A stretch of DNA of 33,143 bases, from contig CAJXRS010000001.1 in NCBI GenBank assembly GCA_913060555.1, forward strand, positions 68,231 to 101,373. Direction: 5' to 3'. The notes under the pieces are model-generated. The model was not told where the DNA came from. It did not search any database and saw only the letters and a list, made by a program, of their open reading frames with translations. This DNA is from an uncultured Gammaproteobacteria bacterium. Lineage in GTDB: Bacteria > Pseudomonadota > Gammaproteobacteria > Pseudomonadales > Porticoccaceae. A program made the translations under genes and the position numbers. This document shows positions 2 through 1,845 of the stretch, piece by piece. Each line of letters opens with the position of its first letter. Position 1 is the first letter of the stretch.

Positions 2-208
2 ACCGCTTTCCTGGCCTCGGTAGCCCTGGCTCCCCTGGCTTCTGCCGCAGAAAACCCCTTCCAACTCGATCGTCTCGCCGGCGGCTACAACCTGGCAGAG
101 AAAGGCGATGCCGAGGGCAAGTGCGGTGAAGGCAAGTGCGGCGAAGGCAAGGCCAAGAGCGAAGGCGAGGGCAAGTGCGGTGAAGGCAAGTGTGGTGGCA
201 GTAACTGA
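2..208 (+). CDS. hvfA: HvfA/bufferin-type RiPP precursor (5' end missing)
   Basis: Precursor of a secreted, post-translationally modified metal-binding peptide; 68 residues are visible and the start lies before the window. The visible part opens with the end of a signal peptide (hydrophobic Ala/Leu stretch, then LASAAENPF with a likely signal peptidase I site). A short linker follows, then a Gly/Lys/Glu/Cys tail with four EGKCG units and one degenerate EGKAK unit. In characterised HvfA/BufA peptides, the MNIO enzyme encoded next door converts the Cys of EGKCG motifs into oxazolone/thioamide or thiooxazole groups that bind copper. It is followed 30 bp later by the MNIO gene and then hvfC, the canonical order. 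Identity is secure from repeats plus context; the metal bound here is inferred. Promoter and start are off the window. Confidence 0.9.
   Translation, partial: TAFLASVALAPLASAAENPFQLDRLAGGYNLAEKGDAEGKCGEGKCGEGKAKSEGEGKCGEGKCGGSN
113..196 (+). repeat. EGKCG-coding tandem repeats in hvfA
   Basis: This stretch codes for EGKCG, EGKCG, EGKAKSEG, EGKCG, EGKCG. A 28-base block beginning GAGGGCAAGTGC at 113 recurs at 167 with a single base change (TGC to TGT in the last Cys codon). The modified tail therefore seems to have grown by duplication of a two-unit module around a Cys-less spacer. It is a coding repeat, not a CRISPR array. Confidence 0.85.
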
Positions 209-238
209 TCGCCGAACTCGCCCGATCACGGTGACCGG

Positions 239-1078
239 ATGACAGTGGTCGCCGGCATTACCGGTGCCGGCCTGGGTTTACGGCGGTCCCTGTTGGGGCC
301 GCTGCAATCCTGGCACGGACCCACACCGGACTTTCTCGAAGTCGCTCCGGAGAACTGGATGCGCGTCGGCGGCAGGCTGGGGCGCAGGTTCCGCGAGTTT
401 ACCGAGCGCTATCCTTTCGTGTGCCACGGACTGTCGCTGTCACTGGGCTCCACGGATCCCCTCGATCTGGATTTTCTCGCCGAACTGCGAGTATTCCTGC
501 GCAAACATGGGGTGCGTTGCTATTCCGAACACCTGAGCTACTGCAGCCACCAGGGTCATCTGTACGATCTGATGCCGATCCCCTTTACCGAGGCGGCGGT
601 ACGCCATGTCGCCGGTCGCATCCGCCAGGTGCAGGATGCGCTGGGGCAGCGGATCGCCATAGAGAATGTCTCCTACTACGCCGCGCCGGCCCGTGAAATG
701 ACCGAGCTGGAATTTCTCAATGCAGTGCTGCGGGAAGCGGATTGCGAGCTGCTGCTCGACGTCAACAATGTCTACGTCAACTCCGTCAATCACGGCTATG
801 ACCCCGACAGCTTTCTGGCTGGGATTCCGGCATCGCGCATCGCCTATGGCCATGTCGCGGGGCATTTTGTCGAGGCCGAGGATCTGCTGGTCGACACCCA
901 TGGCGCCGAGGTCGTGGATCCGGTATGGCGGCTGTTGGCAGCCGCGTATCGCCGGTTCGGTCGCTTCCCCACGCTGTTGGAGCGCGATTTCAATATTCCG
1001 CCAGTGGCGACCCTGATGGCCGAACTCGCGCAGATCTCGAGCGCTCAGGTGGTGGCATCAGAGCCGCAGCCGGCGTGA
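239..1078 (+). CDS. hvfB: HvfB/BufB MNIO-type RiPP maturase (DUF692)
   Basis: Multinuclear non-heme iron oxidase of the DUF692 TIM-barrel family, 279 aa. It is predicted to oxidise Cys residues of the HvfA peptide in the cytoplasm before export. Family motifs are present in order: CHGLSLSLG (His63), SEHLS (Glu97-His98), IENVSYY (Glu142-Asn143), LLLDVNN (Asp174), YGHVAGH (His205, His209), VDTHG (Asp219, His221) and LLERD (Glu248). These are the conserved His/Asp/Glu positions that hold the iron cluster in MbnB-like enzymes. ATG at 239 is the first start after the hvfA stop; its ribosome site is weak (GGTGACC). The last four bases overlap the GTG start of hvfC, implying translational coupling. 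Function is confident by family and context; the exact modification is inferred. Confidence 0.93.
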
Positions 1079-1845
1079 ACGGCGCGGCGGATTTCGCCAG
1101 GCTGCAGGCCGACTTCGCCGGCCACCTGCGCGATCCCGGCGGCCAGCCGCCGCCGGCCGGCATCGAGCCGCGGCGCATGCAGGTCTACCGGGAACTCGTC
1201 TTCAACAATATCGCCGGCTTCATCCGCAACGGTTTTCCAGTGCTCTGGGGGCTGCTCGGCGACGCCAGGGGAAATCGCCTGGTGCGGGATTTCATGGTCC
1301 GTCACCGCGCCGAGACCCCCTATTTTCTGGAGATCAGCCGGGAGTTTCTGGCCTATCTGCAGGAGGAGTACCAGCCCGAACCCGAAGATCCCGATTTCCT
1401 GCGGGAACTGGCCCACTACGAATGGGTGGAGTTGGCGTTGGACGTTGCCGACAGTGAGCTGCCCCGGGAGGGCTTGGATCTGCACGGAGATCTGCTCAGC
1501 GGCCGCCCGGTGGTGTCGCCCCTGGCCTGGGTGCTGTCCTATCGTTACCAGGTCCACCTGCTGGGCCCTGGGTTCCGGCCCACCGAGCCGCCGCCGGCGC
1601 CCACCCATCTGGTGGTGTATCGCAATGGCGCCGACGAGGTGAATTTTCTGGAGATCAATGCGGTGACCGCGCGGTTGCTGCAGCTGCTGGGTTCGGATCC
1701 CGAATCCCGGCCCACCGGCGAGGGCGCCCTGGCGGCGATCGCCGCCGAACTCGGTCAGGCGGATGCCGGGCCCGTGATCGCGACGGGGCGGCAGATCCTG
1801 CTGCAGCTGCGCGAACTCGAGGTGTTGCTGGGCACTCTCGCCTGA
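1075..1845 (+). CDS. hvfC: HvfC/BufC-family RiPP maturation partner (DUF2063)
   Basis: Partner protein that in HvfB/HvfC-type systems forms a complex with the MNIO enzyme and is thought to present the precursor peptide. It is 256 aa from the GTG at 1075, which overlaps the hvfB stop as GTGA. A longer reading frame exists upstream but would run inside hvfB. The N-terminal DUF2063 domain is recognisable from [14 protein letters not shown] and [13 protein letters not shown] (residues about 35-65), followed by the [13 protein letters not shown] helix and [13 protein letters not shown]. The C-terminal half ([19 protein letters not shown]) resembles the winged-helix-like part of the family. No DoxX-family membrane gene (HvfX/BufD), often found in such operons, follows; the next gene is on the other strand. 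Confidence 0.88.

Follow-up and report, generated by a model that had tools for sequence, protein, structure and literature searches.

The window, i.e. the entire stretch of 33,143 nucleotides analysed here, takes up the final 33 kb of contig C1 in a 2.95 Mb genome (199 contigs) and starts inside hvfA, the first of three plus-strand genes encoding a precursor peptide, a maturase and a partner protein. Positions 1–208 carry the 3′ part of hvfA. The earlier note had correctly placed the tail of the precursor at the window start, whereas the extent of the gene has to be corrected, as it is truncated by the window edge: the complete hvfA corresponds to L002:8191-8439, codes for 82 aa and has its start 41 bases ahead of window base 1 (= L002:8232). 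The second gene, hvfB (239–1078), encodes an MNIO (DUF692) maturase of 279 aa which matches PF05114 (E 2e-105), passes NF003818 (433.5 bits, cut-off 360) and has 3BWW as its closest solved structure (E 8.9e-73); it is the sole MNIO gene detected in the genome. The GTG start of hvfC (1075–1845) overlaps the hvfB stop, and its product, a DUF2063/RRE partner protein of 256 aa, matches PF09836 and PF22106, passes NF050145 (302.2 bits, cut-off 142) and is structurally closest to 3DEE (E 2.1e-12). All three reading frames are open. On the 3′ side of hvfC follow a minus-strand BTLCP protease-like gene and an SNF symporter gene; the earlier note had rightly seen no doxX there, although one is frequently encountered in this place. 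Scanning the window for Rfam families and tRNAs gave no match.

The identification as an HvfABC operon stands, since both HvfB and HvfC score above the cut-offs of their NCBIfam models and full-length HvfA passes the core-domain model NF050137 (34.6 bits, cut-off 19.5). Full-length HvfA scores below the cut-off of the HvfA equivalog NF050188 (31.5 of 95 bits), and we therefore refer to it only as an HvfA-type precursor and not as an NF050188 equivalog. The additional label “bufferin” (Buf1/Buf2) has to be dropped, because the maturase remains under the cut-off of the BufB equivalog NF050167 (273.5 of 310 bits) and full-length HvfA matched no Pfam family up to an E-value of 1, and hence no DUF2282. 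The window operon is an ordinary three-gene captophorin/oxazolin system.

Judged by eye against 22 relatives, the N-terminus of HvfA consists of lysines followed by a hydrophobic stretch and a likely cleavage site; an NPF-initiated stretch resembling that of the relatives comes next and leads into EGKCGEGKCGEGKAKSEGEGKCGEGKCGGSN. The latter contains the four EGKCG motifs in two near-identical 28-base modules, each encoding EGKCGEGKCG with two target cysteines, at positions 113–140 and 167–194, which agree in 27 of 28 bases, share an exact 26-base core (from 113 in the first) and are separated by a Cys-less spacer, all as noted before. Less can be made of the duplication as a special trait, given that the pairing is already part of the NCBIfam domain name KCGExKCG_twice (NF050137) and the relatives look similar; the two-plus-two layout exceeds chance and is nevertheless the norm of the NF050137 family. 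Porticoccaceae precursors contain 3 to 13 KCG units, and the window HvfA with four units and 82 aa is the shortest of 22; four EGKCG/KCG units were also counted with a rough pattern in 4 of 80 named loci (L133, L134, L150 and L173). A precursor whose four cysteines form two pairs should be accepted as substrate, as FonBC is reported to have modified a two-repeat substrate with a loss of 8 Da while leaving a single-repeat substrate unmodified (PMC13097082). The same report suspects stochastic copper binding of EGKCG products, which argues mildly against the defined paired metal site that the symmetric spacing had suggested.

The maturase motifs were described as complete, and they look so. The alignment with 3BWW indicates that Asn177, Asp219 and His221 of HvfB (N177, D219, H221) are equivalent to N175, D242 and H244 reported for HvfB of NTHi (PMC13419390). 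Each is present in 110/110 aligned HvfB sequences, i.e. the window protein plus 109 of 110 loci with some genomes represented twice; as the set was picked by a pattern requiring NN at 176–177, N177 was fixed by the selection and only D219 and H221 were freely tested.

A whole-genome search detected a single DoxX gene, with the match at G000:C120:4912-5166, and its product of 217 aa clearly passes the HvfX equivalog NF050144 (223.7 bits, cut-off 80). The statement that the operon has no DoxX partner therefore does not apply to the genome, which encodes an HvfX on contig C120. Of the two explanations offered for the missing gene, a doxX just upstream of the window is excluded by the position of the single DoxX on C120, and a lineage dispensing with DoxX is unlikely in view of the hvfX present; loss of HvfX in this lineage was likewise rejected on the basis of the NF050144 match. 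Judged by the contig ends, hvfX is at least about 31 kb away from hvfABC, and because some 31 kb separate hvfABC itself from the closer of the two ends of C1, an assembly gap between neighbouring genes does not account for the split. A common operon of hvfABC and hvfX was rejected since hvfX resides on a different contig. There, hvfX (start L003:4840) overlaps the stop of a Glu_synthase-domain flavoprotein gene (L003:3263-4843), and a DEAD-box helicase gene comes next. The Glu_synthase-domain gene also directly precedes hvfX in several other Porticoccaceae.

The split is not peculiar to the window genome. Five relatives assembled as single contigs (G024, G026, G030, G031 and G105) show hvfB and hvfX 0.4 to 1.2 Mb apart according to the record coordinates. 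In one set of 35 genomes with HvfB over the cut-off, HvfX is found beside hvfB in 1 of 24 Porticoccaceae (G016), where it has to be considered that the contig of G001 ends just after hvfC, compared with 7 of the 11 genomes that belong to other families of the same order. In the stretch around the linked hvfX of G016 (L066), tblastn with the window HvfC revealed no hvfC. A DEAD-box helicase gene is located near hvfX, within the stretch read, in 15 of 23 Porticoccaceae loci not beside hvfABC, that of the window genome included; of the eight remaining loci two adjoin a BufB gene and four were covered over no more than 4.2 to 5.7 kb.

Beyond the family, we inspected the flanks (up to 8 kb, with some contigs ending earlier) of 80 named hvfB loci, the nearest ones, taken as the best 80 among the matches listed. 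An HvfX-type gene (at least 109 bits) was found in 22, another DoxX gene (43 to 74 bits) in 7 and neither in 51, so that neither an adjoining doxX nor the lack of one can be called the rule. For the 51 genomes without a flanking DoxX, an HvfX-type gene was detected elsewhere in 36/50, among them 7 of 8 Microbulbifer and 4 of 4 Pseudoalteromonas as well as Cellvibrio, Methylobacter and Methylomonas. A helicase gene stands beside such an unlinked HvfX-type gene at 14 of the 30 loci read out of these 36 (one match being weak), including all 7 of Microbulbifer. NF050144 was passed by all nine HvfX-type proteins tested, of which seven belong to named genera and the other two to the genus of the window. 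At L119, L128, L138, L169, L175 and L183 the HvfX-type gene is positioned upstream of hvfB and not after hvfC. The published accounts of MNIO, bufferin, HvfABC and DoxX systems that were consulted do not describe the hvfABC/hvfX split in the main-text passages covered.

Co-occurrence was analysed with an HvfX profile (A1, 23 rows) drawn from the same 58 genomes it scored. It separated HvfX cleanly from other DoxX proteins, with 34 matches of at least 287 bits in 33 of the 58 genomes and no further match above 57 bits. Among 112 Porticoccaceae genomes, 55 contain both HvfB (over its cut-off) and HvfX, 3 HvfB only (G001, G010 and G021), 7 HvfX only and 47 neither; in other words, HvfX accompanies HvfB in 55/58 HvfB-positive genomes and occurs in 7/54 HvfB-negative ones. 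In one of the HvfX-only genomes (G018) a contig terminates within a fragment of hvfB, and in two of the 55 genomes with both (G096 and G116; 62 genomes are HvfX-positive) hvfX appears broken or fragmentary. Many of the genomes are incomplete MAGs. Shared ancestry was taken into account by the Pagel test on a FastTree tree of rpoB; 78 of the 112 genomes yielded this gene, and 76 of them entered the tree. The likelihood ratio is 32.8 (4 df, p 1.3e-6), 28.6 without the oddly placed G009 (p 9.4e-6) and 32.1 without G009 when two borderline hvfB genes are counted as present (p 1.8e-6); these p-values are approximate as they depend on a single gene tree, a midpoint root and a local optimiser. DoxX genes other than HvfX served as control and displayed no association, either in the tree test (LR 6.4, p 0.17) or in the raw counts (48/58 HvfB-positive versus 36/54 HvfB-negative genomes, Fisher p 0.08), and the idea that any DoxX might act as partner was rejected on these values. 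The sequence data thus suggest that Porticoccaceae tend to keep or lose the hvfABC and hvfX loci together.

A class-wide sample of 276 genomes, in which at most 11 first-look candidates were scored per genome so that some HvfX may be missed, points in the same direction: HvfX is present in 55/89 HvfB-positive versus 8/187 HvfB-negative genomes (raw counts, kinship ignored). In 41 of the 55 genomes with both, HvfX lies within 5 kb of hvfB. Leaving these aside, the ratio is 14/48 to 8/187, two of the 14 HvfX genes being located 5.7 and 7.4 kb from hvfB. HvfX was not found in 34/89 HvfB-positive genomes of the class sample, and together with G001, G010 and G021 this indicates that HvfX is not obligatory. 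HvfX-type genes moreover adjoin genes for BufB equivalogs in G007 and G034 (L098 and L099; 384.7 and 383.8 bits, cut-off 310). This neighbourhood and the occurrence of HvfX without HvfB in 7 of the 62 HvfX-positive Porticoccaceae genomes imply that HvfX is not exclusive to hvfABC, and precursors of more than one class may depend on its service.

Upstream of hvfA a promoter-like pair was recognised, composed of GGAAACTT and GGTCATA with the fixed spacing AAC-N18-TC. Scored by a held-out-genus model against doublet-preserving shuffles, it is found in 20 of 22 Porticoccaceae, each at p < 0.02, the 22 genomes including close relatives; this model replaced a first count of 19/22 (1.3 expected), for which the pattern had been defined by eye on the same sequences. 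In the window genome the motif lies at −102 (L002:8089-8121; held-out score 14.0, p 0.005). By resemblance, we take it to be an ECF-type promoter. Extension of the sequence in the upstream direction, as the earlier note had proposed in search of a promoter and doxX, has yielded the putative ECF-like promoter and not the doxX gene. Among 33 upstream stretches of hvfX, one (G039, score 10.2) carries the hvfA motif at p < 0.02; a promoter shared by hvfA and hvfX was rejected accordingly, and co-regulation is unsupported. Precedents which render an ECF-type reading plausible are the reported control of the H. influenzae operon by RpoE2 (PMC7907618) and of Caulobacter clusters, one without doxX among them, by sigma-F (PMC3511200).

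Little can be deduced from the architecture of HvfX itself. For the AlphaFold model of the C120 protein (pLDDT 82.9) Foldseek gave no match below E 0.001, and the middling VIA Z-scores of 8.9 for CD9 and 5 to 6 for VKOR fall within the range stated by the tool for helical bundles. The model suggests a helical protein with no convincing relative of solved structure, and we claim no fold-based mechanism. Across 23 HvfX proteins no cysteine position is fully conserved, and a thiol-disulfide role is less likely for this reason. The membrane step assigned to HvfX below is consequently deduced from co-inheritance and not from structure.

The co-inheritance might also be read differently, namely that hvfABC works alone while HvfX serves another membrane process, for instance together with the Glu_synthase-domain flavoprotein, and that both loci co-occur as a result of a shared lifestyle. 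Such a division would agree with the overlap between hvfX and the stop of the flavoprotein gene, the rarity of the hvfA promoter before hvfX (1/33), the 34/89 HvfB-positive class genomes without detected HvfX and the HvfX genes adjoining BufB genes in two genomes. It would also agree with the report that mmrABC without HvfX still modified MmrA in E. coli (PMC12538549), from which we conclude that HvfX is not needed for the chemistry. We nevertheless consider this reading rather unlikely, since the HvfB–HvfX association persists after correction for the tree while the control DoxX trait lacks any, HvfX is found within 5 kb of hvfB in 41/55 class genomes with both, and the Glu_synthase neighbour is seen in only a part of the Porticoccaceae.

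The immediate surroundings of the operon raise the further question of whether it is silenced or decaying. A group II intron with its RT/maturase is located upstream of the window at L002:6061-7865 plus flanks (PF00078, PF08388, RF01999 and RF00029); its host appears by eye to be an IS3-like transposase remnant, whose integrase core is matched weakly (E 0.0008, below the Pfam cut-off) and whose end, likewise placed by eye, is some 20 bases short of the hvfA promoter. In a DNA search of the upstream stretch against plasmids, the eight matches listed were group II intron genes of other hosts or unannotated. These mobile elements and the shortest precursor of 22 would fit a decaying locus. A loss of function is, however, very improbable in view of the three open frames, the retained conserved residues of HvfB and the conserved promoter, which lies intact on the operon side of the remnant. 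In G001 and G003, two genomes of the same genus, the promoter is present while inspection by eye showed nothing like the remnant over 260 bases upstream, from which we conclude that the insertion probably occurred later than the promoter arose and left it whole. The possibility that C120 is a binning contamination and the genome lacks HvfX is more remote still: C120 is short (8.2 kb, in an assembly of 199 contigs) and its first codons (L003:1-50) give the string MPSLVGSEMCIRD, in reverse LLYTSPSPRD, which is presumably a sequencing-adapter artefact, but its HvfX is closest to proteins of the same genus (82% identity to G003, 76% to G002), another of its genes is 94% identical to a G003 gene in the same neighbourhood, and five single-contig relatives are unlinked in the same manner.

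On the basis of the gene identities and family memberships, the unlinked hvfX, the co-inheritance and the conserved ECF-like promoter observed here, we propose that hvfABC makes a captophorin and that the detached HvfX probably acts in trans as its membrane partner. In this scenario the RRE of HvfC would present the leader of HvfA, and HvfB would act in the cytoplasm, oxidising the cysteines of the four EGKCG motifs to 5-thiooxazoles. The modified HvfA would be exported by means of its putative signal peptide and bind Cu(I) in the envelope. HvfX, encoded at its separate locus, would probably act in the inner membrane on the modified or exported peptide, or on the peptide being loaded. The 5-thiooxazole chemistry, to which an earlier oxazolone/thioamide assignment was revised (PMC13097082, PMC13419390), and copper binding are known from reports on relatives, and the same modification of the present product is presumed by analogy; export of the peptide is likewise predicted, and both the involvement of HvfX in the captophorin pathway and the step concerned are suggested by the co-inheritance. 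A simple copper-stress function appears less plausible, as MmrA-C were reported to be undetected in Microbulbifer with or without added copper and the authors hesitated about a copper-protective role; the protection conferred by mmrABC in E. coli was slight (PMC12538549).

While the operon is of a known type, the useful result is that its partner is detached and not lost, with a co-inheritance that is corrected for the tree. The latter provides evidence independent of gene neighbourhood that HvfX, called uncharacterized in PMC13419390 and its DoxX family named as a possible additional factor in PMC13097082, belongs to the pathway. Its role becomes testable, and Microbulbifer and Pseudoalteromonas would allow a deletion of hvfX that leaves hvfABC as it is. 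Conversely, neighbourhood mining over e.g. five genes on either side (PMC12452194) will classify split systems as DoxX-less.

Compared to known systems, bufferins (BufA1/BufA2 with BufBC) share the enzyme superfamily and the copper theme (PMC12452194) and differ from the window operon, whose precursor has no Pfam match or DUF2282 and whose maturase stays under the BufB cut-off. The fonABC/gonophorin captophorins have EGKCG repeats and an MNIO plus PME1/DUF2063 partner in common with it and 5-thiooxazoles as the reported product, although FonA has seven modification sites and the gene neighbourhoods differ (PMC13097082). With hvfABCX (oxazolin) of NTHi the window genome shares paired EGKCG motifs in HvfA and a full gene set that also comprises HvfB, HvfC and HvfX, and the ECF-like promoter fits the RpoE2 control reported for H. 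influenzae (PMC7907618); in contrast, hvfX is unlinked here and two EGKCG pairs face three AEGKCGEGKCG motifs in NTHi HvfA (PMC13419390). A further system is mmrABC (bulbicupramide) of Microbulbifer, which consists of the same three genes with di-Cys cassettes, three in the studied MmrA and altogether five to eight cysteines across Microbulbifer MmrA compared to four in the window HvfA (PMC12538549). The main text of that paper makes no mention of DoxX; in 7 of 8 Microbulbifer genomes searched, an HvfX-type gene is present at an unlinked site and always adjoins a gene for a DEAD-box helicase. Experiments in E. coli with “DoxX-less” clusters may have used incomplete systems. As a tentative generalisation, to which we give slightly less than even weight, a large part of the Pseudomonadales might possess split captophorin modules, hvfABC with an ECF-like promoter and hvfX at another conserved site beside a DEAD-box helicase gene, which are held together by selection and not by linkage; HvfX would then operate at a membrane step, and the three-gene clusters studied so far, such as Microbulbifer mmrABC, would have lacked it.
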